Origin: Gemmatimonadota bacterium
Lineage (GTDB): Bacteria > 4572-55 > J002
Assembly: GCA_003697105.1 (NCBI GenBank)
Contig: RFFQ01000046.1
Coordinates: forward strand, 1-41,503
Length of the DNA: 41,503 nt
Direction: 5' to 3'
The notes below the pieces were generated by a model. The model saw only the letters and a program-made list of their open reading frames with translations, was not told where the DNA came from and did not search any database. Below are positions 8,201 to 36,401 of the stretch, one piece after another (positions within the stretch are counted from its first letter, which is position 1; each line of letters starts with the position of its first letter). The position numbers were made by a program, and so were the translations under genes.

Positions 8201-10484
8201 GACTTCCATTTTGAATGGGATCGGAGAAGGGTATCCCGTCAACTTTGGAACTACCTTTCACATAGCGGAAACTGTTCGGCATAAAGTCATACAGCCGTCC
8301 ATTGGAAACATATGCGGTCGGGCTCACATTCTCAAAATCAATTTCATATTCCACCAGACCCCCACGCTCGACGGTTTTGCGAAGGACCCGTTTATCAATG
8401 CGGACCATGGGGTTAAGAACGGTAACGACCACAATTTCTGAAAAAGCAACTTCCGTTTCAATGGATTCCAGCGTCGCCATATTGGGAATGCTATCCAAAT
8501 CCACCGCATTATCGATCACTCGGGCATTAAAGGTCACCTGTCCCCACGATTGGCGGGGCAGGGTGGGAAAGGTCCAAATCAGACTCCGGGTGGGTTCATC
8601 GTACCGGGCACTCACCAACACTTCTAGTGAATCGGTTGCCGTTTGGTGAAATTCCGCCTTATTTTGATTATTAATATTGCGCCGGATGACGGACACGGTA
8701 TCCTGATACATCATTAAACGACCATCGGTCCAATTGGTAACATCGGTCAACCGAAAATCGATCTCATCGGTCAAGATGGCATTCGTGATATCAAAAATAC
8801 TTAGATTTTCAAAAGTGATGGTGTACTTCAGCCACTCGCCTGCCTTGACAAATTCTTCCGGTTCCACTTCAATTTTAAGCGGCGCAAAAAAGGCTTGAAT
8901 TCGTTCGATCCGGTCAATGGTGTAATTGGGTCGTGCATCCGGGTCAACGGTGGACTCCACCCGAACGACTAAATCCCAATGCATCGAATTATTATCCCCA
9001 ATAGCGGTGGTATCCGTCACTCCCACCGTGGCAACAATGGTTTGGCGTTCCCCGGGGCGAAGACGCACATCGGGGATACCATCTCCAGACGCATCATCCA
9101 AACGGTCTGTTTGATTCAAGGAATAGAAAAAAACAACGGAATTAGGGGGAAGTGTGCTGTTTTCCCGGTCAAAGAAGACATTAATATCATCCGTCGTATT
9201 ACCGGAATTTAAAATCGTATTAAAAAATACGGCGGGACGTCCTTGCTGGTCTAAGCGGGCGATCTGTCGCACCGAGGAGATATCCGGGGTATCATACCGG
9301 TCCCGCTCCGGATAGTATTCATCGGCGTCATTGGGGAAACGAGGTCGATCCAAAGGACCAATCCAGACTTCAGCAACGGGAGGAATAAGTGTAATGACTT
9401 CATTGGTCTCTTGCGGTTCCCCTTCTAGGGTAGAATAGGAATAGGTACCATAGTTTTCTAACCGCAGATTCCCCGGCACGTTATCATTGACCCGTACCTT
9501 AAAGCGAAACCGTCCCGTTTCCTGCGAACCCAAGCTGAGAATACGGTGCCGGATGCCTAACACATCGGTACCCTCACCGGCGTCCGGTTCTTGATCCACC
9601 CATACGGTATCTTGGATGCCGGAATCAAACACTAAATATTCGGTTTGCCCTTCCGGGAAAACATGAAAACTGCGAGGCACATACGTAATATAAAGACTAT
9701 CATCATCTTGATAGCGGAAAATATCTTGAATGATAACATCACGGGCGGCATTATTCCCTAAATTCCGAAACTCAATGATGTATTCTAAGGTATCGCCTTC
9801 TGCCGCTTCTTGACGATCCACTGACTTATTCACCACCAGATTCGCTCGATTGGAAACATCAACCCGAGCCACATTATCAATATCCGCTGCCGTTGAATGA
9901 ATACTCCGCCCTTCAATATTAAAATAGCCTTGTGCTCCTTCCGGTATCGAGAGGTCCAGTAAGATCGCCACTGCTAAATTAATAAAACCATCCGGTTCGA
10001 TATCTTCTGCTTGGGTAATTTGGGGTTCCCGGGGAGAGGGTAAACCATCCCCGTTCAGATCATGGTAAATACGAATCTGGTCCGGCTCATAATACGGGAA
10101 CCCATTGAAACCTTCCACGTTGAAACAGCGTAAATCGTAAGTATCAGTAATATTGCCTGTATTATATAAGATATAGGAAAAATAGGTTTCAATCCCCGGT
10201 GTGCCAAAACGGGTTTGTCCGGGTGCTTCAACGGTTCCGTTGGGCAGAATTTCCAAACCGTAAACCGGCATAATCTCCGTATATACCGTATTGGAACTAA
10301 CGGTCTGTGGACCTTGGGTGGTACTGTATTTGACATAGGAGGTATTCACAATTTGCATCCCTGCGCGGGCTTTCGCAAAACCCAACGCCGGTAAGCAAAC
10401 CAGAGAGATCACCAATAGCCCGAGCACCCACCAATGGGATCGAGTTTTAAGATATGTCATTATCGGATTCAAAATGGTAGCCAT
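2259..10484 (-). CDS. Giant outer-membrane protein: DUF11-like repeats, two OmpA domains, beta-barrel
   Basis: About 2741 residues. The signal peptide has the hydrophobic core 'WVLGLLVISLVCLPALG' and ends FAKARA. In order (approximate residues): an N-terminal module shared with the neighbouring 1075-aa protein; DUF11-like repeats near 215, 540 and 695; an SdrD-B/carboxypeptidase-regulatory-like domain near 849 ('VFVDENNNRIFDEGD'); OmpA domain 1 with GHTDIRP at 1017 and NRRVEI; OmpA domain 2 with GHTDIRP at 1260 and NRRTEV; a Ser/Pro/Lys-rich linker near 1440; a bacterial Ig-like region; a long run of alternating amphipathic strands (~1700-2495) typical of an outer-membrane barrel; and a C-terminal CARDB-like beta module. 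OmpA domains of this type bind peptidoglycan, so the protein probably ties the envelope layers together. No start codon has a strong ribosome site: ATGs at 10523, 10484 and 10460 are all in frame. 10484 has AGAAAG 4 nt upstream; 10460 would give the neatest signal peptide. Confidence 0.85.
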   Translation of the reverse strand: MATILNPIMTYLKTRSHWWVLGLLVISLVCLPALGFAKARAGMQIVNTSYVKYSTTQGPQTVSSNTVYTEIMPVYGLEILPNGTVEAPGQTRFGTPGIETYFSYILYNTGNITDTYDLRCFNVEGFNGFPYYEPDQIRIYHDLNGDGLPSPREPQITQAEDIEPDGFINLAVAILLDLSIPEGAQGYFNIEGRSIHSTAADIDNVARVDVSNRANLVVNKSVDRQEAAEGDTLEYIIEFRNLGNNAARDVIIQDIFRYQDDDSLYITYVPRSFHVFPEGQTEYLVFDSGIQDTVWVDQEPDAGEGTDVLGIRHRILSLGSQETGRFRFKVRVNDNVPGNLRLENYGTYSYSTLEGEPQETNEVITLIPPVAEVWIGPLDRPRFPNDADEYYPERDRYDTPDISSVRQIARLDQQGRPAVFFNTILNSGNTTDDINVFFDRENSTLPPNSVVFFYSLNQTDRLDDASGDGIPDVRLRPGERQTIVATVGVTDTTAIGDNNSMHWDLVVRVESTVDPDARPNYTIDRIERIQAFFAPLKIEVEPEEFVKAGEWLKYTITFENLSIFDITNAILTDEIDFRLTDVTNWTDGRLMMYQDTVSVIRRNINNQNKAEFHQTATDSLEVLVSARYDEPTRSLIWTFPTLPRQSWGQVTFNARVIDNAVDLDSIPNMATLESIETEVAFSEIVVVTVLNPMVRIDKRVLRKTVERGGLVEYEIDFENVSPTAYVSNGRLYDFMPNSFRYVKGSSKVDGIPFSDPIQNGSQAVWVIPDSLAPKEKRTLRYLSVAGVNTQVGEHINVARMTGNPVVPPQQIISPERVKIIEEVTLVSNDDQAVVRVIEGVFRPEGRLLGRVFVDENNNRIFDEGDVPLHKVRLYMEDGRYIITDANGLYSVDGIDPGVHVIKLDMVTVPPDLIPLPVDNHFVGSATTQFVDLMESGLVKANFRLVRPLLATIDVQKAYLSQEVRLLPGQQQEAVQVLEIPESHFDTGKAELLRIPDEFHQLIAFLETHPDWQILIEGHTDIRPIHTPEFPSNQELSEARAEAVAAALDSLGANRANMVIKGYGPSIPKVPNTSLKNMALNRRVEITLLPPGAEKPALNRVQYIFRIDRSFEAMTDVRLVSEDLNGTYLPESVRWNDAPYDSVPQQVDGQFIWNLGDFPDGMKGIFTYAVEVDTENMPEVLGRLAYIEWTDARGNPRRSKEFTLNLQPEFVADENELTFTLGDFLFDTGKADLRPGSYHYLDRIVEILQEIYPTATGRVEGHTDIRPINTPEFPSNWELSEARARVVYQYLVDHGVDPDRMTWAGFAATRPVAPNTTLENMQKNRRTEVIIELPERLSTMESRRQSTRMELKLEADGMFDSLTVKDQLPPQLAYVPGSAEMDGRPLPDPVVLEGGKLEWHLKNVPAGVSFIQYEVKPLGEAVELDSLPKPDVNGKPSSGRKLIRKSKTPTSSVPSSSAETLADVDSSWVSEGVDGEQTPAMPRKEVSEMTREELLALKRNQKAFVLSPQDGEVYTTRSKISVSIQVPLAANYELRVNGKVVPNDQVGEKRLNAAVSLAQYDYFSVPIQLGKNELVAVAIMPGRKEIVSDPVYVYYADRPAQIKFKTEPKYPTSDGVTEPTLIMEILDKNGIHVADNIFVTVAIDHGDFVTPDAHPGMPGHQVRTKDGFAKVQLSPSYEPEVRFFTATISTSFQVSKRIEFLPELRDFTFVALGEGTIGYQTFSGDRSKMPPDVVDDYEEEVWTDAGLQLFLRGRILGKYLLTAQYDSRKVPNKDKLFEQIDPNSYYPIYGDASKTGYDSESQSPLYVRIERNKSYTMYGDYRAGLTQTELTRYDRAYQGVKTHLENDYLNATGFVTYSNQAFQREEIPSEGISGYYFLSHVPLVENSEKVTVEVRDRFHSENILSRKDLVRHTDYQIDYDDGSILFEQAVPALDLDLNPVYIIVQYESRSQDAKYYKYGGRAAIRYPEVGEIGVTAVVEENADQFQNYELLGTDAKANLFNRKIQVRGEYAQSKHTDPTSLADSSGKAYLMNVKTLSNTKQVELYYRYQESSFSNPSITSAERGTEKYGLRYRFSLGSRNRTKISLGGEAYVRDHLNKDLTTRVNNTELIFGLPGVEAAVGYQYTESEGATSKEESQMAKGELTFAPTNNLKLSVGHARILSGDVIDQFPSKSTASFDFRQGLHLFDKIRLFGNAEYQHDEIDSTENPLRAKAGLELTVLKNTDLYTHTAFDNKSTSYTEGARQKFTFGETLHLGVRGESVQKISGQQREDFYVFGANAAYRRTATSQVSGKYEIRMGDDSDKHVIDFQTRQRFENGVDFIARQTYWYEDLKDKRDNIKSDGYAGWAFRPLDHDRLNVLAMLRFRYNRGQEYVAARTLVSAEAVYQKTPRLQLRGRYAIKRTDWESEILDPFTIYTDLGLAEMVYDLTDRFDLTIGARVLHQYQTNTYQYSLGAEVGMRLVQNLQGILGYNITGFEDRDFSDYSYWKQGPFASLRVKLDEQVFTSAPDPELLSGVRTPVSAENRDVAVVELAENDHVLMQEVPDYIRQFDPMATIGLIEKNGLYSPVTLSSTPMLSLLTLNPEVLTQTEPVMESINQTVQEVNQTVNTALASTDPSPDIEPVFGDVPIPTDPAQLPYLAYSFTPDMSLSTGSTGQLVVVVQNNGDGDAYYVKLNITSPAEGVHLGQSVWRLNKLSRHSHQTHVVTLQVDADYQQTFVPVWVELSYRGGSGMKHQHYVPIRIR
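6490..6840 (-). other. OmpA-type peptidoglycan-binding domain 2 inside the giant protein
   Basis: A second copy begins near 'FLFDTGKADLRPGS', has GHTDIRP followed by 'TPEFPSNWELSEARARVV', and ends NRRTEVI. It lies about 240 residues after the first copy, with a DUF11-like module between them. The two copies are nearly identical at protein and DNA level around GHTDIRP, which points to an internal duplication or gene conversion. Confidence 0.85.
7210..7560 (-). other. OmpA-type peptidoglycan-binding domain 1 inside the giant protein
   Basis: The domain begins near 'SHFDTGKAEL' and has the core GHTDIRP, the helix 'ELSEARAEAV' and the C-terminal NRRVEI motif. These are hallmarks of the OmpA_C family; the Asp of GHTD and the Arg of NRR are typical peptidoglycan-contacting positions. 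It lies in mid-protein rather than at the C-terminus, where OmpA domains are usually found. Confidence 0.85.
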
Positions 10485-10533
10485 TGCACTTTCTGAATGA
10501 AATAAAAAGCAACACGTTTCCATTTTAATAAAG

Positions 10534-23126: not shown

Positions 23127-23149
23127 GGCGGAGATGAGCGATCTCCGCC
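23127..23149 (-). terminator. Perfect 9-bp GC-rich hairpin upstream of the M20 gene
   Basis: GGCGGAGAT (23127-23135) and ATCTCCGCC (23141-23149) pair perfectly around a 5-nt loop. It lies 80 nt after the permease stop and 36 nt before the M20 start. On the minus strand the following bases are ATCTCTTTATC, moderately T-rich, so it probably ends the ABC transporter operon, possibly with read-through. Confidence 0.5.
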
Positions 23150-23228: not shown

Positions 23229-25289
23229 TCATTCTTGAACCGGAACATCCTCACCCCTATTTTTGGCGTCACCTTCCGGTACAGCCCACAAACTAACCCC
23301 GAGCACAATGATGGCACTGATTACATACGGCAAAGGGATATGCTCATCCTCAGACACAAGCCATGAGATATTTTCGATACCGGGTAATTTAGTTAGGACA
23401 AAGCCAATCGCATTATTCAAAAAATGGGCAAACATTGCCGGAAAAATACTACCGGTGCGGATGGTTAGATAACCCAAAATCACACCGATCAGCGCCGTAG
23501 GCATGAACCGGTACGGGCTGAGGTGGAAAATCCCGAAGGCAATTGCGACAACCACTACAGCCGTCATGGGCTTCATTACTTGCCGGAAACCACTCAAGGC
23601 AAATCCCCGAAACATGGCTTCCTCACAGATGCCCGGCAAAACGGCACCCAAAAAGATCACCCACATCCATCCCCAGATCGTTTCGGGGTCTCCACCCAGT
23701 TGTTGCAGTGCTTCTAGCAGTTCTTTTGGTAACGGTAAAAATTGATTTTGATAGACCATCAGTTCAGAAATCACCAAAATTTGCGCCGGAACAATGAACA
23801 GAGGTAAAATCATTGCCCCCAGTGGTGGACGGCGGAATGATAACGCCTTCTTAAAATCAACCCCAGAGGTGTAACTGATGAACGCGGTGAGTCCGAAAAT
23901 GAGGACCACTTGCGTTAATAATAGTCCGATGTCCAGATTCCACGTTTGTAAAGGCGCACCCACATAAAAGAGCAACATCAACCCGACAAATAGGACGGTG
24001 GCGGCTTGGGTAGGCGTGGGGCACGGCTTCCATTCATCAGGAGGTGTGAGCCAATCTTTGAGATCAAAGCTGAGTTTGAAGTCCTCCCCCGCATTGAACA
24101 AAATATCTTCCCGCTCAAATAGGTTGGTGGCAAAGAGGATTGAAAGCCATGCCAAACCGAGAGTCGAAAAGACCGTGACCCCAATATGTGTCCAATTGAG
24201 GTCACCGAGCAGTAAATCCCGAATCAACAGCGACATATTGACCACCGGCACAATCACCAGCGGGAAATCGAGTTCGATCCCCGGGATAAGGGAAGCATAG
24301 GCGGGAAACATCCCCAAAATCATGACCGGAGTCAGGTAATTTTGTGCCTCCTTGTAGCTTCGGGCAAGGGTGGAAACCCCCATAGCGAGTGCACTGAACG
24401 TGAATCCTAGTGGAATTGCTAGCAAAACAATCAGCCCCAGTGTTGGCGGGTCAATGGAAAAATTGAGTTGTTCGCTCCCCTCACTACCCATCAGGGTGAC
24501 ACCGTAAGCAAAGGTTAAACCCATGCTGATAATGTTGAGAAGAGCCGTGATCATCGCCGCCGAAAAAACGGTTAAAAATTTGCCTATCACAATGTTGATC
24601 CGGTTTGTCGGGCTAACTAGGATGGTTGCCATCGTACCGCGCTCTTTCTCTCCGGCAGTTAGATCCACCGCCGGATAAAACGTACCGGAGAGCATCATCA
24701 GGATCAAAAACATCGGGATGATTCGCCCAAAAACAAACCCTCCCATCTTCTTTGCGGATGCAACATTTTCGATCTGTTCGGCAATGGGTTTGGCATACAA
24801 TGAATCCAGCCCGGCTGCGTTTAAACGCTGAGTGGTGATGACCTCTTTGTAGGCATATAAAACGGCATCAATTTTTTCTTGTGCCGCTAAGGACTTATCA
24901 TTTGCCTTATCCACATAAATGGTTAATGTAGCTTGCTTACCGGCAGCCAAACGGATCATAAACGAGTCCGGGATCACCACTGCCGCCTGATAGTCACCCT
25001 CTTCTACCTTTTTTTTGTAATCGTCCTCCGGTGCGCTCACGATTTCTAATTTATCGTTAGCCCGCAGTGAATCTGCAAAATCGGGGGCAAACTCAGCGCC
25101 GATCAGAGCCACTTTCGCCTTTTGTGCGGCTAACTTGGACGCCTGAATCGACATAATTTGGGTAAACGCTATAAACATTACCGGATACAACAGCAAGGGA
25201 ATAACTACCATCGCAAAGAGGGTGCGTTTATCCCGCAGAATATCAATAACTTCTTTCCGAAAAATGAGGAGTATCTGGCGATAGTTCAT
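23229..25289 (-). CDS. ABC-2 permease fused to a CPBP intramembrane protease
   Basis: 686 residues in two parts. Residues 1-395 are an ABC-2/NatB-type permease: one N-terminal membrane segment ('FAMVVIPLLLYPVMFIAF'), a ~130-residue extracytoplasmic domain, 'GEKERGTMATILVSPTNR' (the conserved coupling region), and about five more segments. Residues ~430-680 are a CPBP (CAAX/Abi) glutamic protease with all three motifs: EEAMFR (Glu556, Glu557, Arg561), FGIFH (His589) and HFLNN (His622, Asn625/626). Such fusions are known among NatB-like sodium exporter relatives; the protease substrate is unknown. The start overlaps the preceding gene by 4 nt (ATGA). Its ATPase partner is the NatA-like protein three genes upstream. 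The protease is predicted active from its motifs. Confidence 0.93.
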   Translation of the reverse strand: MNYRQILLIFRKEVIDILRDKRTLFAMVVIPLLLYPVMFIAFTQIMSIQASKLAAQKAKVALIGAEFAPDFADSLRANDKLEIVSAPEDDYKKKVEEGDYQAAVVIPDSFMIRLAAGKQATLTIYVDKANDKSLAAQEKIDAVLYAYKEVITTQRLNAAGLDSLYAKPIAEQIENVASAKKMGGFVFGRIIPMFLILMMLSGTFYPAVDLTAGEKERGTMATILVSPTNRINIVIGKFLTVFSAAMITALLNIISMGLTFAYGVTLMGSEGSEQLNFSIDPPTLGLIVLLAIPLGFTFSALAMGVSTLARSYKEAQNYLTPVMILGMFPAYASLIPGIELDFPLVIVPVVNMSLLIRDLLLGDLNWTHIGVTVFSTLGLAWLSILFATNLFEREDILFNAGEDFKLSFDLKDWLTPPDEWKPCPTPTQAATVLFVGLMLLFYVGAPLQTWNLDIGLLLTQVVLIFGLTAFISYTSGVDFKKALSFRRPPLGAMILPLFIVPAQILVISELMVYQNQFLPLPKELLEALQQLGGDPETIWGWMWVIFLGAVLPGICEEAMFRGFALSGFRQVMKPMTAVVVVAIAFGIFHLSPYRFMPTALIGVILGYLTIRTGSIFPAMFAHFLNNAIGFVLTKLPGIENISWLVSEDEHIPLPYVISAIIVLGVSLWAVPEGDAKNRGEDVPVQE

Positions 25290-25726
25290 CGGTTGGTGTC
25301 CTGTTCTGGGAAGTCAGGATCATCAGGTATTATGATAGAGACGATATCCAACTGGAATCCCTTCTTTCGTTCCACAGTGTTGTAATCCATCAGGATTCGC
25401 TTGACGTCGGGGTAAAGTTCCAATTTTCGCTCAAGCAGCATCTGGAGAGTATCTTGTAATGTGCGCCGTTCATTCCAGGCATACCACGGGATCAACGATT
25501 TCACAGCATGTTTTAGCTGCTTTTTCTGGGCTTCTTTGGTGGTTTCAAGGCTGATATTCCATGCCATAATACCAAATATAACCGACTTTTCAAACATATC
25601 CGGATCATCAAAATCAACATATTTTTGTAAGGGTTCAATGACATTCAGAAGTAATTCAGACATTTTGGGGTCTTTTTCATGCCCCCGAATAACACGCATA
25701 TTGTGATGGAGATTACGCTTTTTCAT
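25286..25726 (-). CDS. Small unknown soluble protein in the ABC transporter operon
   Basis: 146 residues, not recognised. It is mainly helical and charged, with 'MSELLLNVIEPLQKYVDFDD' near the N-terminus, no signal peptide and no membrane segment. The C-terminus is beta-like ('FQLDIVSIIIPDD'). ATG 25726 was chosen; a GTG at 25738 in frame adds four residues, and neither has a clear ribosome site. Its stop overlaps the permease start by 4 nt, so translation is coupled and the products are likely to be needed together. It lies 98 nt after the 95-aa gene. Confidence 0.75.
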   Translation of the reverse strand: MKKRNLHHNMRVIRGHEKDPKMSELLLNVIEPLQKYVDFDDPDMFEKSVIFGIMAWNISLETTKEAQKKQLKHAVKSLIPWYAWNERRTLQDTLQMLLERKLELYPDVKRILMDYNTVERKKGFQLDIVSIIIPDDPDFPEQDTNR

Positions 25727-25824
25727 CTGGGGATCCACTTGATCAACTATGTGGTGTTGCGTCTTATTTTTTGGTTTTCGGACAATTTTGTATCAGGTCC
25801 GGTGATAAGACAGGTTTAATTGCA

Positions 25825-26112
25825 TTAAAATTCATCCTGTAACCGGCGACCGTCTTGGCTTTGTTGAAAATGTTCTTTGTCAAAGCGGAGCATTTCGGCG
25901 ATTTGTCGTTCTTCATCTGACAAGGGGCGATTGAGTTCCGCTAATTTTCGTAAATACTTAGATGCTAATCCGAAATAGTTGGCAAGTGCCAAGTAATACG
26001 ACATTTCCTGTATTTGGCCATCTGCATCGGTGAGTTTGGCAAGTTCCAAATTTGTTTTAGTTCGTACTACGTTTTGACGAGCGTACTCAATTCGTTCAAT
26101 AAAATTTTGCAT
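25825..26112 (-). CDS. Small helical unknown protein between ATPase and permease genes
   Basis: 95 residues, not recognised. It is almost wholly helical, with a heptad-like pattern ('MQNFIERIEYARQNVVRTK', later 'LRKLAELNRPLSDEERQ'), and is probably a small coiled-coil or helical-bundle protein. Start 26112 has AGGAG 7 nt upstream. It lies 13 nt after the NatA-like gene, inside the operon. It may be a transporter accessory factor, but nothing beyond position supports that. Confidence 0.78.
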   Translation of the reverse strand: MQNFIERIEYARQNVVRTKTNLELAKLTDADGQIQEMSYYLALANYFGLASKYLRKLAELNRPLSDEERQIAEMLRFDKEHFQQSQDGRRLQDEF

Positions 26113-26125
26113 GGCACCGCTCCTT

Positions 26126-27055
26126 TCATGCTACGACGCCTTGAGTGATCGTCATAAAAATATCCTCTAGGTCGGTTTCCTCTTCATGGAAGGCGATCAC
26201 TCGAATGTCATTTAAAACTAATATTTTAAGTAAGTCGGGATCATCACCGTCAGGAGAATCATGGACTTCCACCACCAACGTATTTCCCTCACGCTCAATA
26301 TGCTGGACTTCAGGGAGGTCTCTTAGGAGAAGGTGAGCCGTTTCAACCTGATCGGATACTGTGATGACAAACCGGCGATTTGCCCGAATCTGTTGTAAAA
26401 TGGATTTCACATTACCACTCGCTAGCAGGGTCCCGCGTTCGATGATACCGATAGTATCCACAAAATCTTCGAGTTCAGACAAGATATGGGACGAAATCAA
26501 GATGGTTTTTCCCATCCGCTTCAATTCTTTTAGCAATTCACGCATTTCAATTCGGGCACGCGGGTCTAGTCCGGAAGCGGGTTCGTCCAATAAAAGCACT
26601 TTGGGGTCATGGACAAGCGTTTTTGCCAGACACAGGCGCTGTTTCATCCCGCGTGAGAGGTTATCCACCATATCCTCGCGTTTACTTTCCAGATCGGTCA
26701 AGACTAGCACATCATCAATGATACCAATCCGGCGCTGCTTTTCAATTTTGTAGGCAGCCGCGAAAAAATCCAAATATTCCCAGACTTTCATATCATCATA
26801 AACCCCGAAAAAGTCAGGCATATACCCGATTTGAGATTTCACAGCGTCTGGCTCTTTTGTTACCGAAAAACCGTTGACGATGGCATCCCCGTATGTGGGT
26901 TCCAGCAGGGTGGAAATCATTTTAATTGTGGTCGTTTTGCCCGCACCGTTGGGTCCGATAAAACCAAAAATCACCCCTTGAGGAATATTCAAATTAAGGT
27001 GATTTACGGCAGTGATGTTTTTGTATGTTTTGGTCAGGTCGTGTGTTTCGATCAT
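26126..27055 (-). CDS. ABC transporter ATPase, NatA-like
   Basis: 309 residues. The nucleotide-binding domain is complete: Walker A GPNGAGKT (34-41), Q-loop region 'IGYMPDFFGVYDDMKVWEY', signature 'LSRGMKQRLCLAK', Walker B 'VLLLDEPASGLDPRARIE' and the switch His ('ILISSHILSELE'). A C-terminal extension (~220-309) is typical of DrrA/NatA exporters. It should energise the ABC-2/CPBP fusion encoded 0.8 kb downstream. ATG 27055 begins 2 nt after the stop of the second SpoIIE gene (TGATCATG), with no separate ribosome site, so translation is coupled to the phosphatase gene. That links the transporter with the signalling pair. Confidence 0.93.
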   Translation of the reverse strand: MIETHDLTKTYKNITAVNHLNLNIPQGVIFGFIGPNGAGKTTTIKMISTLLEPTYGDAIVNGFSVTKEPDAVKSQIGYMPDFFGVYDDMKVWEYLDFFAAAYKIEKQRRIGIIDDVLVLTDLESKREDMVDNLSRGMKQRLCLAKTLVHDPKVLLLDEPASGLDPRARIEMRELLKELKRMGKTILISSHILSELEDFVDTIGIIERGTLLASGNVKSILQQIRANRRFVITVSDQVETAHLLLRDLPEVQHIEREGNTLVVEVHDSPDGDDPDLLKILVLNDIRVIAFHEEETDLEDIFMTITQGVVA

Positions 27056-27057
27056 GA

Positions 27058-29358
27058 TCAGGAGAATTTCATGGTAATCAGAGTAATGTCATCAAATTGC
27101 TCGCTTGTACCCATAAAACGCACGAGTTCGGTCATCAAGATGTGGTGCAATTTACGGGCATTATTCTCTCCATGCAAACCAACTGCCGCTTGAAGCCGGT
27201 TGAGTTCATACAATGTGCCCATTTCGCTACGAGCTTCAGTGACACCATCGGTGTATAGAACGATGCCATCACCGGGTTCAATTTCGATTTCCTTCTCTTT
27301 AAGGAGCATACTCAGGTCATCCGTGAGACCAATTGCCAACCCGCCGGATTTGATCCGCTCACAACTGCGTTTGCTGGATCGATAGACCAAAATATGTTCG
27401 TGCCCGGCACTGGAATATGTCATTTTACGGGTATGTCCATTCCAACATAAGTATAGCATTGTCATAAACTTACCTGTTCCTAAATCGGGGTAAACATATT
27501 TATTGAGCAGTACCAGATTTTCTTTGGGAGAAATAACTTGATTCGCAAGGGTATGCAAAACGGTACGGGCACGCATCATAATCAAGCCGGCAGAAACCCC
27601 TTTACCGGACACATCCCCGATAACGATCCCCAATTCAATACCGGGGATACGCTCAATATAATCAAAATAATCTCCACCGACTTCCCGGGCGGGTACCATC
27701 TGCCCGTAGATATCGAGCCGCAAGGTATCTGGGCGGCGGCTGGGCAATAATCGGGTTTGGATGTCGCTGGCGATGTCTAACTCTTCTTTGACCCGTTCGC
27801 GGGTGGAAACCTCACTGTAAACCCGTGCATTCTGCATGGAGACCCCCGCTTGCCCCGCCAAGACCGAAATGAGGTCAATATCCTCTTTGGTAAACGCCGA
27901 GGGTTCGGCACGAGCCACATTTAACACCCCGACCATCTCATCGCGGGAGACATGGGATAACGCAATGGAAATAAGGCTGCGCATACCGGCATATTCGGGG
28001 GGAATATCACCCTTAAATTTGACTTGTCGTGGAATGTCTTTAATTTGTAATTGGCGCCGTCCTTTGTGCCATTCCCGCGCTAACTTCCCGACAATTCCAC
28101 TGCCGTGCCGGACAGCAAGTTTTTTGACGTTTAGTTTACTGGTATCAATATCGGTCATGGCAGCACACCGCAAAATTTGATGTGGCGGGTCATTCAGCCA
28201 AAGTGAAACCCGATCCGCGCCAACCACCTCTTTGATATTCCGTACTATTTCCGTGGAAAGCTCTTCAATATCCAAAATAGAACTCAGTTGTTTGCGGATT
28301 TCGTTCACGCTTTGCATTTTGCGGGAAAATTCTTTTTCTTGCTCCACAAAATTCCGAATCCAATGCGATAGATCGGTAAAACCACGTGCCACTTGACCAA
28401 TTTCATCGCTACCCCACACGGTTTCATCGATAACCGCAGCCTCCACATCATCTTGGCGGATCGTTTTAACAAACTCGCGTAATTTCTTGAGAGGGGCAAC
28501 CATCAAAATACTCATCACCCATGAGAGTAACGCCAAACAGACTAAACAGACCAGCGCCGTTACCATCATACGGAATTTCATCCGCATACTGGCATTGGTA
28601 ATGCCGTCTAGCGAAAATTCCAATTGAATCCAGCCCACCATGACCCCTTCAGGATTCCGTAATGCCAAAAATACGCGCCCTTCGTCCGGTTGTAGATAGA
28701 TCATATCAGAGATTTTCTTGAGTCGGGACACATCGATACCATCCTGAAGTGACGTGACGGATTCAGCCTGCCGGATCATATTCCGAATCGATTGGATGAC
28801 ACCACTTCCGGCATCTAACGTGTTGCCGATAAACAAAATACCGGTGATATGCCGCCGGGTTTGATCAAAGATCGGTGCCGTGGCATAAATCCCTAAATGT
28901 GGCTGGGGTAATCCTGTCTGGCTGGCGTGGAAAAAGGCGATTCCGGTATTAATGGTATGCCTCTGCGACGAATGGATGACCGGAATGGGGGGAATATCTT
29001 CTTGGGAGTCCGTAAGGACGTTACCATCCACATCACAAATGACAACCCAATCGAGGTGCGAGCGCTCCTTGACTTGGCGTAAGTATTGACGTTCCAACAG
29101 GCTCAACAACTGCGGGTTTTGGAGGTATGTATTTAGGTTGGGGTCTGTTGAAATATAGCGGGCTTCATCCGCCAGATATTGCTGGTGGTCGCGGAGAACT
29201 TGCGGAGCGACCCGGGTTTGTTGCACCAAATAATCCTGAATTTCGCGTTGGGTTAGTTGGCGTTGCTGGATCAATGAATCCCCCAGAAAAAAGAGAAAGG
29301 GGATGAGCATCAGCAGGAAAAAGGCGGCGGCAATGCGGTCTCGGAACGATAATTTCAT
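27058..29358 (-). CDS. Membrane sensor phosphatase: Cache-like, HAMP, GAF, SpoIIE (copy 2)
   Basis: 766 residues. An N-terminal membrane segment (~10-27), an extracytoplasmic Cache-like domain (~30-255), a second membrane segment (~262-285), HAMP (~286-340), GAF (~355-515) and a C-terminal SpoIIE/PP2C-like phosphatase (~545-766). The metal-binding motifs are canonical: GGDYFDY (561-567), GDVSGKG (581-587), LYTDGVTEA (701-709) and FDDITL. RsbU-type members dephosphorylate an anti-sigma-factor antagonist (STAS protein) in partner switching. No STAS or anti-sigma kinase gene is seen nearby, so the target is elsewhere. It starts 1 nt after the paralogue's stop, with AAGGTG 8 nt upstream. Confidence 0.92.
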   Translation of the reverse strand: MKLSFRDRIAAAFFLLMLIPFLFFLGDSLIQQRQLTQREIQDYLVQQTRVAPQVLRDHQQYLADEARYISTDPNLNTYLQNPQLLSLLERQYLRQVKERSHLDWVVICDVDGNVLTDSQEDIPPIPVIHSSQRHTINTGIAFFHASQTGLPQPHLGIYATAPIFDQTRRHITGILFIGNTLDAGSGVIQSIRNMIRQAESVTSLQDGIDVSRLKKISDMIYLQPDEGRVFLALRNPEGVMVGWIQLEFSLDGITNASMRMKFRMMVTALVCLVCLALLSWVMSILMVAPLKKLREFVKTIRQDDVEAAVIDETVWGSDEIGQVARGFTDLSHWIRNFVEQEKEFSRKMQSVNEIRKQLSSILDIEELSTEIVRNIKEVVGADRVSLWLNDPPHQILRCAAMTDIDTSKLNVKKLAVRHGSGIVGKLAREWHKGRRQLQIKDIPRQVKFKGDIPPEYAGMRSLISIALSHVSRDEMVGVLNVARAEPSAFTKEDIDLISVLAGQAGVSMQNARVYSEVSTRERVKEELDIASDIQTRLLPSRRPDTLRLDIYGQMVPAREVGGDYFDYIERIPGIELGIVIGDVSGKGVSAGLIMMRARTVLHTLANQVISPKENLVLLNKYVYPDLGTGKFMTMLYLCWNGHTRKMTYSSAGHEHILVYRSSKRSCERIKSGGLAIGLTDDLSMLLKEKEIEIEPGDGIVLYTDGVTEARSEMGTLYELNRLQAAVGLHGENNARKLHHILMTELVRFMGTSEQFDDITLITMKFS

Positions 29359-29359
29359 G

Positions 29360-31708
29360 TTAGCTCACCTTTCCCACCAACAGGGTGAAGTCATCATCTT
29401 GCCGGGCATCCTGAATATGATCCAGAATTTGTTGGGTGATACCTTGTTGAATCTCTTCAGCGGTTCTATCAGCATAATCCTGCAAAGCGTGCTTAATATC
29501 CGTGACACTAAACCATTCGTGCGCCGTATTTCGGGCAGTTCGTGCCCCGTCTGTAAAAAAGAGGAAACTATCTCCCGGTTGAAAACTGGCACTATATTCG
29601 GTTAGTTTTGTTTCCAGATCGGTTTCAGCGCCGAGTGCGCCGGTTTTGCTGAATTCATATTCAATAACAAGTTCCGATTCCGCACGGTAGATCAGCAAAT
29701 GAGGCTGTCCGGCACTGCAAAAGGTCAATTTACGGGCGGGACCATCCCAGATGGCATAACTGATCTTGACAAGGGTATTTTCGCTCATGTTATCCTTAAT
29801 GACGTTGTACATGTTCAACACCATTTCTCGCGGAGATTGGATGTATTCCGCCGAAGCGTGAATCGCCATCCGCATGATAATGGTCAAAATACCGGCTTGT
29901 ACACCTCGTGCTGTGACATCCGCCAGCACCAACCCGACCGTATCATCACTCCCGTGATGGATGTAATCGTAATAATCACCGCCATGGGTTCGCACCCGTT
30001 GGATGGCGGCACTGAGCGTCAAATGCGGGACATTGGGGGTGGTTTGTGGCAAAATTTCTTTCCGGATTTCGTTGGTGATTTCCAGTTCCTTCCCCATCCG
30101 TTCCTGCTCGGCAACTTTACGGTACAAACTGGCATTATCCAGCGAGATCGACGCTTGTCCGGCAATCATCATCATAAAGGTAAGGTCGTTCTCCGTAAAA
30201 CCATTTTCCAGACGGGTTGAGTATAAATTAATGGCACCAATGACCATCCCCCGCGTCGTGAGCGGCACCGAAAGGAGGCAAGTATGGATGTTGTTTGGAT
30301 TGGGTAAATTGTGGCGCTCCTCAATCGAATTGACAATCAGCGGGGTGGCTTCCGAGACGACTTTTCCGGCGATCTGCTCGCCTAATTCCATCACTTCCCG
30401 TGAGATCGGTGCGCCGACTCCCGCCGAACCGGAAACAGAAACCTCCAATTCATCTTTTTCTTCGTTTTTCAGAAAGAGTTCAAAGTGGGTCACGTCTTCA
30501 ATCGCGTCAATTGTTTTTTCCATAATCATGTGACGGAGCATATCCAAATCTTCCACCACCCCGGAAATGGAGCGGGCAATCGCATTCAATTTGGAAAGTT
30601 CTGCTCGTTTTTCGCGTTCATCTGCCACCAGTTCATTCATCCGGTCCACGATCACGTTGAAATCCGCGGCAATTTCCCCGACTTCATTGTTGGGAACTTT
30701 TGCTCGAATATCCAAATTATTTTGTAAGACCTGTACAATTTTCGCTTTTAATTCCACCAATGACGTTGACAAATCATGGGTCATCGCACCAATGGAAAGT
30801 GGTAAGATCATGATAATCAGGAAGATCGCCGCCAGTGCCCGTTGAAAGGTTTTTCGTTTCCACAAAGAGAGAAAGGTGTTGGGCTGAGCGTACACAATCG
30901 CCGCCACAATATTTGCCTCCCCATCCGCTAAGGCACGATATGTGACAACATAATGTTGATCATGGATCGGCTGGTGTTGGACAATATCGGTATCCAAACG
31001 CAGGTCGGTAAAGGTAAGTTGTTGCGGGTCAATGATAGGGCGAGTTAAAGCATCCGTGCTAGAAATCAGAACCTGCTTATCCGAGATAATCTGGAAAAAT
31101 GCGCCGGCAGGAAGTTGATCGATCATGTTCTGAATCACTGGGCTTTTTTCCGTGAGGGTGCGTACCGCGGCAACAGAACCGTAAACCTCCGCACCATCCC
31201 GAATGGGTGCGGCAACCATCCATTGAAATTGGTCATTTACCACTGAAATAGAGGAAACAACATTGTTTCCGGTCTCTGCTTTGGCTAATAGGTGGTACAG
31301 ACGTTCCGTAACCGCTGTTGGGTCTGAAAAACGTTGGTTATCTGCCTGAGCCACTACCAATACGTCCAAGTGGTAATGATGTTTTTGTTGCTGGACGTAA
31401 TCTGGATCGATATAAAGGTCCAGGGTATCGGTTCGGAGGCGTTCGAGCAGATCAGTTTGTTGGGCGAGATAATCGGCAATAAATTGTACCGCCCGGTTCA
31501 AGCGCCATTCTTCTTGGTGCAACATGAACTCAATTGAGGCAACATCTCCGCCAAGCTCACTCATCAACGTTTCGCCGGGGGCAATACTGGCAGAATGAAT
31601 AAACGTCGTGGCAATAAACGTGAGCGTGCCCAAGACAATAAATGCCAGCCAGAGCTTACCTTGCAACGAGGACATAAAAATACGGAATATACTTCGTAAG
31701 ATTTGCAC
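29360..31708 (-). CDS. Membrane sensor phosphatase: Cache-like, HAMP, GAF, SpoIIE (copy 1)
   Basis: 782 residues, same architecture as its downstream neighbour: membrane segment (~18-38), extracytoplasmic domain (~40-285), membrane segment (~288-308), HAMP-like linker (~310-365), GAF (~380-530), SpoIIE (~555-782). The phosphatase motifs are GGDYYDY (576-582), LADVTARG (595-602) replacing the usual GDVSGKG, FFTDGARTA and DDDFTLL. The metal-binding Asp residues are kept, but the second motif and the DG motif are divergent, so activity or specificity may differ from copy 2. GTG start at 31708 overlaps the previous stop by 1 nt (TAGTG), with GGAG about 8 nt upstream. The pair is an old tandem duplication. 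Confidence 0.92.
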   Translation of the reverse strand: MQILRSIFRIFMSSLQGKLWLAFIVLGTLTFIATTFIHSASIAPGETLMSELGGDVASIEFMLHQEEWRLNRAVQFIADYLAQQTDLLERLRTDTLDLYIDPDYVQQQKHHYHLDVLVVAQADNQRFSDPTAVTERLYHLLAKAETGNNVVSSISVVNDQFQWMVAAPIRDGAEVYGSVAAVRTLTEKSPVIQNMIDQLPAGAFFQIISDKQVLISSTDALTRPIIDPQQLTFTDLRLDTDIVQHQPIHDQHYVVTYRALADGEANIVAAIVYAQPNTFLSLWKRKTFQRALAAIFLIIMILPLSIGAMTHDLSTSLVELKAKIVQVLQNNLDIRAKVPNNEVGEIAADFNVIVDRMNELVADEREKRAELSKLNAIARSISGVVEDLDMLRHMIMEKTIDAIEDVTHFELFLKNEEKDELEVSVSGSAGVGAPISREVMELGEQIAGKVVSEATPLIVNSIEERHNLPNPNNIHTCLLSVPLTTRGMVIGAINLYSTRLENGFTENDLTFMMMIAGQASISLDNASLYRKVAEQERMGKELEITNEIRKEILPQTTPNVPHLTLSAAIQRVRTHGGDYYDYIHHGSDDTVGLVLADVTARGVQAGILTIIMRMAIHASAEYIQSPREMVLNMYNVIKDNMSENTLVKISYAIWDGPARKLTFCSAGQPHLLIYRAESELVIEYEFSKTGALGAETDLETKLTEYSASFQPGDSFLFFTDGARTARNTAHEWFSVTDIKHALQDYADRTAEEIQQGITQQILDHIQDARQDDDFTLLVGKVS

Positions 31709-32112
31709 TACTCAATCTCCAGAATACCGCGCTCAAAATTGAGGTATAGATGTCCGAATTGACGGAGAAAATTCAAGCCGATCAGTCCGTCCACCCGGCT
31801 GGATTGGGGCACATCATGGCAGATCACATCAATATTTTCAACCGCTTTATCCAGTACGTTCATGCGTTCAATCGTCACCACAGGGACGACTCGAATCCCA
31901 CGCGAGGTGACAATTTCCTTGCGGCGGTCTGTTTTCGCGGGGTCATGCCCGAGGGCAACCGCAACTTCCCACGGGATCACCGTGTACGTGGCCGAAGTAC
32001 TCACCATCATCCGAATTAACCGGGAGGTTTCTGTCTCGGCACTGGTTTTACCGTGAAGCTCGGCATACAGCACAATAATAGGTGTTTGGGGGTCGAAGAG
32101 CACTCGTGCCAT
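31708..32112 (-). CDS. Retropepsin-like protein lacking the catalytic Asp
   Basis: 134 residues, the size of one retropepsin-like (clan AA) domain. The signature region that in relatives reads VDTGATYTVIP is here VSTSATYTVIP, so the catalytic Asp and the following Gly are both Ser. The second hallmark is kept: 'VDGLIGLNFLRQFG', and the C-terminal 'FERGILEIE'. The fold therefore seems conserved but aspartic protease activity is very unlikely. It overlaps both neighbours by 1 nt: TGATG with the 83-aa gene, TAGTG with the SpoIIE gene. It is thus strictly coupled to a sensor phosphatase and may act as a binding or regulatory domain. No signal peptide; cytoplasmic. Confidence 0.82.
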   Translation of the reverse strand: MARVLFDPQTPIIVLYAELHGKTSAETETSRLIRMMVSTSATYTVIPWEVAVALGHDPAKTDRRKEIVTSRGIRVVPVVTIERMNVLDKAVENIDVICHDVPQSSRVDGLIGLNFLRQFGHLYLNFERGILEIE

Positions 32113-32363
32113 CAGAAGATCACCACTAAGTCATCCGGAATATCACCCGTGTAGTCAATACACAATTTGCGCTTGGTACGCATCTGTTTGGTGTAAGTCG
32201 TGGCACGATTTTTTGAGTTGGAGACCACAATGCCGCTGACCAAACTCGTCACATCATCGGTATCATAATCCGCAAGCAACAGCCATTGGTTCGGATATTT
32301 TTTCCGAATGGTGGCAAGATTCTCGCGCTCCATAGGTTTTTTGATGGGGATGTCATGGGGCAT
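32112..32363 (-). CDS. Small unknown protein paired with the retropepsin-like gene
   Basis: 83 residues. Start 32363 has GGGAGG 9 nt upstream, the first good ribosome site of the sub-operon. The central 'YPNQWLLLADYDTDDVTSLV' followed by 'SGIVVSNSKNRA' resembles small DUF5678-like proteins, which I recall beside retropepsin-like genes in other genomes (not verified). The last part, 'YTGDIPDDLVVIF', ends exactly with the stop that overlaps the next start. It is likely a partner of the retropepsin-like protein. Confidence 0.78.
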   Translation of the reverse strand: MPHDIPIKKPMERENLATIRKKYPNQWLLLADYDTDDVTSLVSGIVVSNSKNRATTYTKQMRTKRKLCIDYTGDIPDDLVVIF

Positions 32364-32404: not shown

Positions 32405-32869
32405 CTAGTGGTCGGGGGATGGGGACGATTCTTCGATGCTCAACATTTTCAGATGACTTTCGAGGAGTGCCCGTTGTTTAATTAAAAAGGTCTCTTTGTG
32501 TTTTTTCAAACGTTCAATTTCCAATTTGAGGGTTTTGACCTGCTGTTTTGCATCCGCTTGGAGCTGTTCCGCGTTCAGTTCCGCATCTTTCAGAATAAGC
32601 TCGGCTTCTTTGACCGCTTGTCGCTTGGTCTCTTCCGCGGTCATCTGCGCTGAGACGAGGGTATCCCGCAGGGTTTTTTCCATCTGGCGGTAATCGGCAA
32701 TCTGGCGATCTAAATCCGCTAGTTTTTCTTTCAAGTGACTATTTTCGCGGATCAAGGCTTCGTATTCCGCGGCGACCATCTCCAAAAAATGGCTAACTTC
32801 TTCAGCGTCGAAACCACGTCCGGCTTTCTTAAAGGTGTGTTTGCGGATATCTAGGGGGGTAATGTTCAT
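32405..32869 (-). CDS. divIVA: DivIVA-domain coiled-coil protein
   Basis: 154 residues. The N-terminal ~35 residues match DivIVA: '[20 protein letters not shown]' then '[13 protein letters not shown]'. The rest is a long charged coiled coil rich in Glu, Lys and Gln (~35-145) with a short Ser/Pro tail. DivIVA proteins bind negatively curved membrane and place division, growth or secretion proteins. They are best known in Gram-positives but occur in some diderms. The start overlaps the yggS stop by 4 nt (ATGA), echoing the ylm-divIVA order of Firmicutes. It lies 41 nt before the 83-aa gene. Confidence 0.92.
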
Positions 32870-33564
32870 GGGTACGTTCTGGCTCCAAAAATAGCGGTGC
32901 CCACCCGGATGAGCGTAGCACCTTCTTCAATCGCAACTTCAAAATCGTTGGTCATTCCCATCGAGAGATGCCGCATGGACACATTTGGGAGTTCTAAAGT
33001 CTGAATGTGATCGCGCAAATGGCGAAGTTGACTAAAACAGGGTCGAATGGCTTCCGCGTCATCTAAAAAGGGTCCCACCGTCATCAACCCTTGAATGCGG
33101 ATACCTTCCAATGAGGCCGCAGACTTCACCAATTCAATGGCATGATCGGGATCGACGCCAAATTTGGAAGCCTCCCCCGAGGTGTTGACTTCTATAAGCA
33201 CATCCATCACCTTCTGCCGTTGGAGGGCCCGCTTGCTAATGGCTTCGGCAAGTTTGTATGAATCCACCGAATGAATCAGAGAAAACAAATCCAATGCTTT
33301 ATTAATTTTATTTTTTTGCAAGTGACCAATTAAGTGCCACGTGACAGTGCCCGCAGGCAATTTCGGGATTTTCGTTTCCGCTTCTTGCACCCGATTTTCT
33401 CCTAAAACGGTGATACCCGCATCAATTGCCGCTTGAATTTCGGCAAGAGTACGGGTTTTACTGACCGCAATCAGGGTGATTTCATCCACAGACCGCCCGG
33501 CACGTGCCGCCGCCGTCGCCATACGCTCCCGAACGTGTGCTATGCGGGTGTGAATCGTGTTCAT
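32866..33564 (-). CDS. yggS: YggS/PLPBP family PLP-binding protein
   Basis: 232 residues, the usual family length. The PLP-binding Lys is in 'LIAVSKT' (Lys36), and 'LGENRVQE', '[11 protein letters not shown]' and 'LIHSVDS' are hallmarks. The C-terminus has '[28 protein letters not shown]', matching the phosphate-binding region. The protein buffers pyridoxal phosphate homeostasis and has no confirmed enzyme activity. ATG 33564 has AAGGAG 4 nt upstream and was chosen over an upstream frame extension. It is first of the run yggS-divIVA. Confidence 0.95.
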
Positions 33565-33609
33565 CCGTCTCCTTTTCACGAAAAACAATGCCTTAAAATC
33601 AGATTCGTT

Positions 33610-33692: not shown

Positions 33693-36401
33693 TTATACGG
33701 CTCGTGCCAGTTCAAACCGTTTTCGGTACTTACGCTCCAAGGTATGTCGTAGGACATGGTTTGCCGGATGTGCCAATTCGGGGTCTGTCGCTACGACCTT
33801 AAACGCCAATTCGCGAGCGAGGAACAACACACCCGCATCTTCCACCAAATCCGCGACGTTCATTTCCGGCAGACCCGATTGCCGGGTACCGAAAAACTCC
33901 CCGGGACCCCGAATTTTCAAGTCCGCTTCCGCGATTTTGAAGCCATCGGTGGTTGAGGTCATAATTTCCAAGCGTTGCCGGGCAGTTTCACTCACCGGAT
34001 GGGAAGCAACTAAAATACAGTATGATTGGTAATTTCCCCGACCGACGCGCCCCCGCAACTGGTGCATCTGCGTTAAGCCAAACCGTTCGGCATTCTCGAT
34101 CACCATCACGGAGGCATTGGGCACATCGACCCCCACTTCAATCACGGTTGTGCTGACTAAAATGTGGTAGTGTTTCGCCAGAAATAACTCCATGATTTCG
34201 TCTTTTTCTTCCGCAATCATCCGCCCGTGTAACAGGGCGACCCGGAATGGCTTGAACTGAGGCTGTTTCCGGATGGCGTCTGCCATTTCGGTGGCAGCTT
34301 TCAAGTCCATTTTTTCCGACTCCTCCACGAGGGGATAGACAAAATACGCCTGCCGCCCCTCTTGCAGTTGTTGCCGCACAAAATCATAGAGTTTTTCCCG
34401 CTGTTGGTTCGTAACCCACGAGGTTTGGATCGCTTGCCGCCCGGGGGGCACCTCATCAATGATCGATACATCCAGATTACCATAGACGGTCATTGCCAAG
34501 GTGCGCGGGATCGGTGTTGCCGTCATTACCAACATATCCGGGTTTTGCCGAACACGTTCGGCATGTGCCAAAATAAAGGAGCGGTACCGGTACGCCGCCT
34601 CTTCCCCCAAAAGGGTCTTGAGACGCTGAATCAACTCACTTTTGAGGATAGGTTCCGTCTGGCACAGAGTTTTAAGCGAGTGGATCACCTCCGGTGGGAT
34701 ACTCCGCGCTTCCAAATCGCTCAGGGTATCAACCGTAAATTGATACGCATCCCGCCGTTCTAACTGATTATCGATCAAAGGCTTATACGTTTTGGCCTCT
34801 TTTGCCCCAATAACGATCTTCAAATAATCCGTAAAATTACGTTTGCTCATGGGTTTATTGATGAGCGCCGCCAGGGTCAATTTGACGTCCTCCGGGAGTG
34901 CGTCTTCTTGCTGCAATACCGCGAGACCGGACTCGGTCAAGATCACCTGTTTAACCTTTTTTAGGCGGGCAAAAATCCAGCTACTAAGCTCCGCTGCCAC
35001 CGGTTTGCCCGCCAAGGCGATCAATGTTTGGGTGAGATCGGCTTCATCGGTAAATGTTTGCCCTTTCAGGGTCGAAAGTTGGTCGAGCACTGCCGGTTCA
35101 ATCCGCAACCGCGCTAATTGCTGGAGGGTTTCGGGGGTGATCCGGTACAAAACCGACTTTTCGCGCAAGGCGGCACGTTGAATGACCCCGAAGCGGTGTT
35201 GTTCATCGATCACCACAAAACCGAGGTTGTGAAATTCGAGGGATTCTTGAATCAAAGCATGTGTGCCAACGACAATATCCGCGGCACCGGTCGCAATCTC
35301 GGAATAAGTAAGATCACGCTCCGTTTTGGTCAGCCCGCCGATGAGGCGCACCACTTTGACCCCGAGGTCATAGGAGGCAACCATCGCGGAAATCTTGCGG
35401 AAATGTTGCTCTGCTAGAATTTCCGTTGGTGCCATAATCGCCGCTTGGTAGCCATTTTCTACCGCGATGAGCATCACCAACACCGCCACAATGGTCTTCC
35501 CGGCGCCAACATCTCCTTGAAGCAAACGGTTCATCGCGTTTTCACTACGCATATCCGCCACAATTTCACGGATGGCACGTTTTTGGGCGCGGGTCAACTC
35601 AAACGGTAACGAATCGACCAACTTCCGTGAGAGAGTTCCCCCCTCGGGGAACTGGATCGCTCGGCAATCTTTCGTGGAAAGGCTAAACTCCCGTTTTTGT
35701 AAAGCGAGCATCAATTCCAAATAAAAAAGTTCCTCAAAAGCCAATCGATCATGTGCTTGCTCTTGCAACGCCATGGAATCCGGGTAGTGAATGTGCTTTA
35801 CCGCCGCTTTCAAACTCATCAGATTTGCCGCTTTTAGTACATAAGTGGGGATCGATTCCTCAACATGGGCAAGATAGTGATCCACCGCATATTTCATAAT
35901 TTTGCGGACGTGTTTTTGGTACAATCCGGCAACAAGGGGATAGATTGGTACAATTCGCCCCGCATGGAGGGCTTCTTCTTTACCGGAGATCACCTCACAT
36001 TCGGGATGGATCATACTGAGCGCACCCCGAAATTCATTGACCTTCCCACTGACCAACACTTCATCGCCAATCTCAAACTGGTTGTAGATATACTTGGCAT
36101 TAAAAAAGTTACAAGCGAGGAATGCACTTTCATCGGTGATCATCACAGTGAACATTTCCCCACGGGAGGTTTGTTTTTTCGCAAAAGAGTGTACGGCGCC
36201 GCAGATGGTTGCCTCTTCCCCATCCTCCAAATCGATAATGCGTTGCAGGGTACTCCGATCCACATAGCGGCGGGGCACATAGGAGAGTAGCAGGTCTTCC
36301 ACCGTGAAAATCCCCATTCCGTTGAAAAGCTCCGCGCGGCGGGGTCCAACCCCCTTTAGGTACATGATGTTATCGGTGATTTTGGGTTCAGGTCTGCTCA
36401 T
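33693..36401 (-). CDS. recG: ATP-dependent DNA helicase RecG with a large helicase-domain insertion
   Basis: 902 residues, versus about 690 in typical RecG. The N-terminal wedge/OB domain, Walker A 'GDVGAGKT' (296-303), DEQHRFG (399-405), TATPIPRT (627-634), 'TTVIEVGVDVPNASVMVIE' and 'QLRGRVGRG' are all intact. RecG remodels stalled replication forks and branched DNA. Between DEQH and TATP, normally ~30 residues apart, there are ~228 residues: an extra ~200-residue, mostly helical block. It has no intein splice motifs. It appears to be a genuine in-frame domain insertion rather than damage, since the flanking motifs are perfect. No clear ribosome site precedes ATG 36401; a promoter lies 48 nt upstream. 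Confidence 0.95.
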   Translation of the reverse strand: MSRPEPKITDNIMYLKGVGPRRAELFNGMGIFTVEDLLLSYVPRRYVDRSTLQRIIDLEDGEEATICGAVHSFAKKQTSRGEMFTVMITDESAFLACNFFNAKYIYNQFEIGDEVLVSGKVNEFRGALSMIHPECEVISGKEEALHAGRIVPIYPLVAGLYQKHVRKIMKYAVDHYLAHVEESIPTYVLKAANLMSLKAAVKHIHYPDSMALQEQAHDRLAFEELFYLELMLALQKREFSLSTKDCRAIQFPEGGTLSRKLVDSLPFELTRAQKRAIREIVADMRSENAMNRLLQGDVGAGKTIVAVLVMLIAVENGYQAAIMAPTEILAEQHFRKISAMVASYDLGVKVVRLIGGLTKTERDLTYSEIATGAADIVVGTHALIQESLEFHNLGFVVIDEQHRFGVIQRAALREKSVLYRITPETLQQLARLRIEPAVLDQLSTLKGQTFTDEADLTQTLIALAGKPVAAELSSWIFARLKKVKQVILTESGLAVLQQEDALPEDVKLTLAALINKPMSKRNFTDYLKIVIGAKEAKTYKPLIDNQLERRDAYQFTVDTLSDLEARSIPPEVIHSLKTLCQTEPILKSELIQRLKTLLGEEAAYRYRSFILAHAERVRQNPDMLVMTATPIPRTLAMTVYGNLDVSIIDEVPPGRQAIQTSWVTNQQREKLYDFVRQQLQEGRQAYFVYPLVEESEKMDLKAATEMADAIRKQPQFKPFRVALLHGRMIAEEKDEIMELFLAKHYHILVSTTVIEVGVDVPNASVMVIENAERFGLTQMHQLRGRVGRGNYQSYCILVASHPVSETARQRLEIMTSTTDGFKIAEADLKIRGPGEFFGTRQSGLPEMNVADLVEDAGVLFLARELAFKVVATDPELAHPANHVLRHTLERKYRKRFELARAV
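34539..35156 (-). other. ~200-residue insertion between RecG helicase motifs II and III
   Basis: Residues ~416-621 of RecG. It begins after 'QRAALREK' and ends before 'NPDMLVMTATP'. It is helix-rich with repeated Leu/Ala/Lys patterns, for example 'PETLQQLARLRIEP' and 'PEDVKLTLAALINKP', which could be tandem helical hairpins. Codon use looks like that of the rest of recG, so it is not a recent foreign insertion. Confidence 0.8.

Follow-up and report, generated by a model that had tools for sequence, protein, structure and literature searches.

Positions 1 to 41,503 of contig RFFQ01000046.1 (assembly GCA_003697105.1, a Gemmatimonadota bacterium), below called the window, contain a run of eight tightly packed genes (g1-g8). 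A first-pass annotation of this DNA had interpreted them as one system that joins an inactive retropepsin, two sensor phosphatases and an ABC exporter with a built-in protease. Our analysis favors another explanation. The run is likely a lineage-specific assembly of unrelated modules located behind yggS and divIVA, in which the phosphatase genes g3-g4 would be the displaced end of a partner-switch operon acting on a STAS protein encoded on another contig, C69. The run would combine parts of three distinct module types, all of them known before, joined only in this lineage and sharing at most a transcript, while one new machine is unlikely.

The window represents contig C112 of a metagenome-assembled genome (MAG; genome G000) that consists of 199 contigs and belongs to an isolated lineage. 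One other genome of the same class, G001, was available for comparison, and all remaining genomes are related to G000 only at the domain level.

Gene order in other genomes

The g1-g8 order was absent from G001, from 20 loci of the g8 family, from 38 g2 loci in named genomes, and from the other g2 loci examined. In G001, the yggS-divIVA pair is conserved, but it is followed by genes resembling 2-oxoacid:ferredoxin oxidoreductase genes; because other genes trail the pair there, neither the divIVA-g1 junction nor the g1-g8 order is conserved. The modules that G001 does contain occur apart from each other, the exporter is absent from it, and the complete set was found in no other genome examined. 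The idea of one coherent system is thus not supported: lack of a conserved order in related genomes had been named beforehand as its refutation, and the order has no counterpart in G001 or at any locus examined.

The genes of the run and the two preceding it are as follows:

32866..33588, minus strand: yggS, overlapping divIVA by 4 nucleotides (nt), 57% identical to the G001 gene
32405..32869, minus strand: divIVA (PF05103, 8.8e-42), 41 nt upstream of g1
32112..32363, minus strand: g1, 83 amino acids (aa), small DUF5678-like partner protein of g2 (PDC-M08A-like)
31708..32112, minus strand: g2, 134 aa, retropepsin fold with the catalytic DTG changed to STS (PDC-M08B-like)
29360..31708, minus strand: g3, 782 aa, GTG start, membrane sensor phosphatase with GAF and SpoIIE/PP2C domains (Pfam), orthologue of G001 C15a
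27058..29358, minus strand: g4, 766 aa, membrane sensor phosphatase with HAMP-like, GAF and SpoIIE/PP2C domains (Pfam), orthologue of G001 C15b
26126..27055, minus strand: g5, 309 aa, DrrA/GldA-type ABC ATPase
25825..26112, minus strand: g6, 95 aa, near-orphan
25286..25726, minus strand: g7, 146 aa from the ATG, or 150 aa if the GTG at 25738 is used, near-orphan
23229..25289, minus strand: g8, 686 aa, fusion of an ABC-2 permease with a CPBP (glutamic) intramembrane protease
23127..23149, minus strand: candidate intrinsic terminator after g8, 9-pair stem with 6 G-C pairs and a T-rich tail

The phosphatases g3-g4 and their partner-switch genes

The best matches of g3 and g4 in G001 are a tandem pair, C15a and C15b, on contig C15. 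For the 28 SpoIIE-domain proteins of the window's genome and G001 (a mis-extracted fragment, G000_C63, was left out), a maximum-likelihood tree groups g3 with C15a (100/99) and g4 with C15b (93/80), and places all four together (96/93). Identity amounts to 25.5% over 650 aa for g3 and C15a and to 39% over 492 aa for g4 and C15b, and in the SpoIIE search of the window's genome nothing matched the C15 pair more closely than g3-g4. A search for related loci among genome contigs that used g3 alone as query gave no relatives.

On contig C15 of G001 the order is as follows: a solute-binding protein (SBP), a HAMP/DUF4388 protein, a STAS+HATPase fusion, a stand-alone STAS protein, the two phosphatases PP2Ca and PP2Cb, and then a response regulator/cyclase. 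Contig C69 of the window's genome carries the first four of these genes in unchanged order, with identities to G001 of 53, 44, 35 and 54%, respectively, and they are followed by mfd (named by eye); a search of C69 for a SpoIIE gene found none. Hence g3-g4 on C112 and the STAS/HATPase partners on C69 are not encoded adjacent to each other. Because STAS/HATPase genes also adjoin paired PP2C genes in the outgroup loci of G078, G059 and G046, the linkage is probably ancestral and the arrangement seen in the window derived. Judging from orthology and gene order, the g3-g4 pair represents the 3' end of the partner-switch operon, moved away from the rest. The earlier idea of a partner-switch output for the phosphatases, for which a STAS-domain gene was to be sought elsewhere in the genome, is supported, as the STAS/HATPase partners were located on C69.

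The PP2C metal-binding motifs are kept both in g4 (GGDYFD, GDVSGKG, TDG, DDITL) and in g3 (GGDYYD, ADVTARG, TDG, DDFTL). The stand-alone STAS protein of C69 has 118 aa, and its YLNSTALG region, which is kept in both genomes, contains the serine that we take to be phosphorylatable by comparison with SpoIIAA. In the STAS+HATPase fusion the STAS part is degenerate, and the HATPase half matches PF13581 (4.2e-21). Four findings, namely the orthology of g3-g4, the C69 gene order shared with G001, the lost linkage and the catalytic Asp residues still present in g3 and g4, lead us to infer the following course of events. The membrane phosphatases g3-g4 would sense an extracytoplasmic or membrane-located signal and would most likely dephosphorylate in trans the stand-alone C69 STAS protein, which is their best-supported substrate; the dephosphorylated STAS protein would then bind the RsbW-like HATPase half of the fusion and change its output. 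The Cache-like sensor domains initially ascribed to the phosphatases are represented by one sub-threshold match in g4 (18.4 bits vs. a cut-off of 28.4), and g3 has none.

The orthologous loci differ in two further respects. In C15a of G001 (L059:11129-13522) most metal-binding Asp residues of the PP2C domain are lost (GSNFLD, GIVFTKG, TPG), and it is likely a pseudophosphatase beside an active partner; this loss suggests that copy a possibly serves as a regulatory partner of copy b in G001. An AhpC/TSA domain stands at the N-terminus of the partner-switch SBP of the window's genome (L098:14481-16259), and a LysM at the C-terminus of the G001 SBP (L059:6560-8032).

The g1-g2 pair

A retropepsin fold is recognized in the product of g2 (PF13975, 1.7e-10), and the profile of its family matches the structures of the APRick and Ddi1 proteases; a single-sequence AlphaFold model of g2 (predicted local distance difference test, pLDDT, 34) was too poor for use. 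In the alignment its active-site DTG reads STS, and the catalytic D-T/S-G motif is absent. The catalytic Asp is kept in every homologue with a readable motif and lost only in the window copy. Retropepsins are homodimers in which each chain contributes one Asp. We considered a second retropepsin that would restore activity as a heterodimer and rejected this possibility, since g2 was the only retropepsin match in the window's genome. Because the Asp is lost, a homodimer needs an Asp from each chain, and the genome has no second retropepsin, g2 almost certainly lacks protease activity, in agreement with the initial description of the fold as inactive.

A search with g2 identified short retropepsins in scattered bacteria, nearly all of them with an ORF (open reading frame) of 60-120 aa just upstream, usually overlapping the start of the retropepsin gene; the mis-framed locus L194 was left out of the count. 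As the broad g2 alignment was too poorly conserved for scanning, a tighter one was used to scan the named genomes. It yielded 38 retropepsin loci, including those in Methanosarcinales, Thermoplasmata, Woesearchaeota, KSB1 and Deltaproteobacteria. At 34 of them a short ORF ends at most 60 nt from the retropepsin start; inspection by eye classed 33 of these 34 ORFs as g1-like, the exception being the one in L248. When the neighbors at the named loci were compared all-against-all, only the g1-like and retropepsin families recurred, besides an antisense ORF, and neither phosphatases nor transporters were repeatedly linked to them.

The g1 family is DUF5678-like, with three of its 13 members matching DUF5678 (best 0.0024). 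Six of the 13 match the PDC-M08A model (best 1.7e-6); g1 alone does so only weakly (E=0.008), while its position and overlap fit. The PDC-M08B model is matched by g2 (2.3e-6) and by all 11 aligned members of its family (best 4.3e-12). By its distribution, g1-g2 is a stand-alone, usually overlapping two-gene pair of bacteria and archaea, and it is PDC-M08-like, that is, it appears to correspond to the PADLOC candidate defence pair PDC-M08A/B. The defence role of that pair is putative, and the papers searched contained no test of such a function. The PDC-M08 pair of a DUF5678-like protein and a retropepsin can thus be described as a stand-alone unit in both domains, with one almost certain case of natural inactivation of the protease. 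The G001 pair (L189:9774-10402, contig C7) is intact and adjoins a transposase-like gene and a pair of PIN-type toxin-antitoxin-like genes (all named by eye).

The ABC genes g5 and g8 and the near-orphans g6 and g7

The g8 protein passes the curated model NF041647 (722 bits vs. a cut-off of 435) and contains the EExxxR motif of CPBP proteases (CEEAMFR). Its family occurs in many phyla and is absent from G001. In most of the 20 loci read, a NatA gene is directly adjacent, and none of these loci contains relatives of g1-g4, g6 or g7.

In a tree of the ATPases, a 98/98 split separates g5 from the NatA proteins adjacent to g8 homologues and leaves it with ATPases of the DrrA/GldA type, its exact placement being unsure owing to its long branch. 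By this split we rejected g5 and g8 as a canonical NatAB pair; by the same tree, they are members of two different ABC transporter lineages. An orphan NatA-type ATPase on contig C96 of the same genome (L210:9725-10495) groups with the g8-adjacent NatA proteins; it is 50% identical to the NatA of G141, and its gene overlaps a 2-hydroxyacid dehydrogenase-like gene. This ATPase is a probable displaced partner of g8. The initial naming of a NatAB exporter with a CPBP protease therefore holds for the presence of an ABC ATPase and an ABC-2 permease fused to CPBP, but not for g5 as NatA; the matching NatA is encoded on C96. Operons thus appear to have been broken up in this genome: C69 and C112 each hold part of the partner-switch operon, and the permease gene on C112 is separated from its probable NatA gene on C96.

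The gene g6 has no Pfam match and, besides its own genome, a weak match in one of 290 genomes; for g7 no credible relative was found in 241 genomes. A low-confidence single-sequence AlphaFold model shows g7 as all-helical (pLDDT 48, too poor for use).

Transcription of the run

All eight minus-strand ORFs from 32363 to 23229 were confirmed in the sequence, together with the junctions first reported for them, which are, in order, a TGATG overlap, a TAGTG overlap, gaps of 1, 2, 13 and 98 nt, and an ATGA overlap (the 98-nt gap between g6 and g7 is counted from the g7 ATG at 25726). The hairpin followed by T residues at 23149-23127 fits a 3' end after g8, although such sites are no more frequent than in shuffled sequences, and the same holds for promoter counts. 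No RNA families were found in the window. The run has no clear upstream boundary at 32363, since the end of divIVA lies 41 nt ahead of g1 and divIVA itself overlaps yggS, which is preceded by recG. The junctions and the candidate terminator suggest that g1-g8 are probably co-transcribed, so the proposal that these genes are made together is retained at this level; divIVA may head the same transcript, and a transcript running from yggS or recG through g8 is plausible.

Tight spacing is weak evidence here, because closely packed genes are frequent in this genome: among 68 other same-strand neighbor pairs sampled, 27 lie at most 13 nt apart or overlap. A functional link among the modules could still exist, spacing being the sole positive evidence for it.

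Alternative explanations

Several observations weigh against an assembly of unrelated modules. Six of the seven g1-g8 junctions are at most 13 nt long and three of these are overlaps, which is tighter than the genome norm and makes some selection for co-expression possible. The window's genome has 24 STAS matches in total, so the substrate of g3-g4 could be a STAS protein other than that of C69. Because G001 is the single classmate, conservation of the gene order was tested at one deep branch only, besides distant phyla. Finally, a MAG as fragmented as this one could contain a chimeric join, though the key junctions all lie within contigs. Such a join of unrelated pieces, to which the number of contigs lends some credit, is nevertheless very improbable: where modules meet, the adjoining ORFs are intact and either overlap in their coding sequence or lie 1-2 nt apart, G+C runs along the contig without a step, and the SpoIIE search revealed no better candidates for the C15 pair elsewhere in the genome.

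The possible selection for co-expression is accommodated by partial recruitment, in which rearrangement joined the modules and their co-expression has since been selected without physical coupling, for example of the sensors with an envelope exporter and the growth genes yggS/divIVA. Start/stop overlaps or near-contacts across module borders (TAGTG at g2/g3, 2 nt at g4/g5) and the active-site residues retained by the moved phosphatases agree with it; tight packing is common in the genome, however, and no second genome shows that the arrangement is maintained. We regard it as unlikely, and as less unlikely than the other alternatives. A genuine single system, with sensor phosphatases controlling a partner switch that governs the exporter/protease and a dead retropepsin serving as a binding module, is improbable. 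The tight junctions, a candidate terminator only after g8 and a catalytically dead retropepsin are compatible with it, but the set occurs in no other genome examined, every module is found elsewhere without the others, g5 and g8 are not a canonical pair, and the relatives of g1-g2 are not regularly associated with phosphatases or transporters. Equally doubtful is a narrower proposal, that the dead PDC-M08-like retropepsin and its small partner have come, through translational coupling, to regulate or anchor g3-g4 from the cytosol, forming a new input branch to the C69 switch.

Taken together, the data favor the assembly of unrelated modules, with g1-g2 as a separate PDC-M08-like pair whose protease is almost certainly dead. 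They suggest that the shuffling of modules can produce an operon as conspicuous and closely packed as this one, and in place of a speculative eight-part machine they offer two testable links, from g3-g4 to the C69 STAS protein and from g8 to the C96 orphan ATPase.

Other observations in the window

In the RecG protein (902 aa, 33693-36401, minus strand) an insert of about 200 extra residues (about 34480-35110) separates the Walker B region (EQHRFGVIQR) from motif III (MTATPIPRT); it matches no Pfam family. At 2259-10523 (minus strand) the window encodes a putative surface protein of 2754 aa, in which repeated DUF11-like segments and two OmpA-like stretches were recognized by eye.

Comparison with known systems

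The bacterial retropepsins APRc/APRick and RloA (PMC4140852, PMC12239564) share with g2 the retropepsin fold, as detected by profile, whereas g2 has neither the N-terminal hydrophobic segment nor the catalytic Asp and has other gene partners. In PDC-M08, as in the window, a small A gene lies upstream of the retropepsin gene B and usually overlaps it; the window differs in that B has no catalytic Asp and A alone matches weakly. The g8 protein resembles NF041647 in scoring well above the curated cut-off and in having EExxxR, but members of this family are normally encoded beside their own NatA, while g8 adjoins a DrrA/GldA-type ATPase and the NatA is encoded elsewhere.

SiaA (NF038263), a biofilm phosphatase, is like g4 a membrane sensor with a C-terminal PP2C domain; the partial match of g4 (69 bits) is far under the family cut-off (700 bits), and g4 has a GAF domain. 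The closest parallel to the g3-g4 and C69 genes is partner switching of the RsbU/RsbV/RsbW type (reviewed in PMC8256260), with which they share a PP2C-type phosphatase, a STAS protein with a conserved Ser region and an RsbW-like HATPase, encoded together in G001 and the outgroups. They differ from it in having two membrane GAF-PP2C sensors, a HATPase that carries a second, degenerate STAS domain, accompanying SBP and HAMP/DUF4388 proteins, and, in the window's genome, phosphatases unlinked from their partners.

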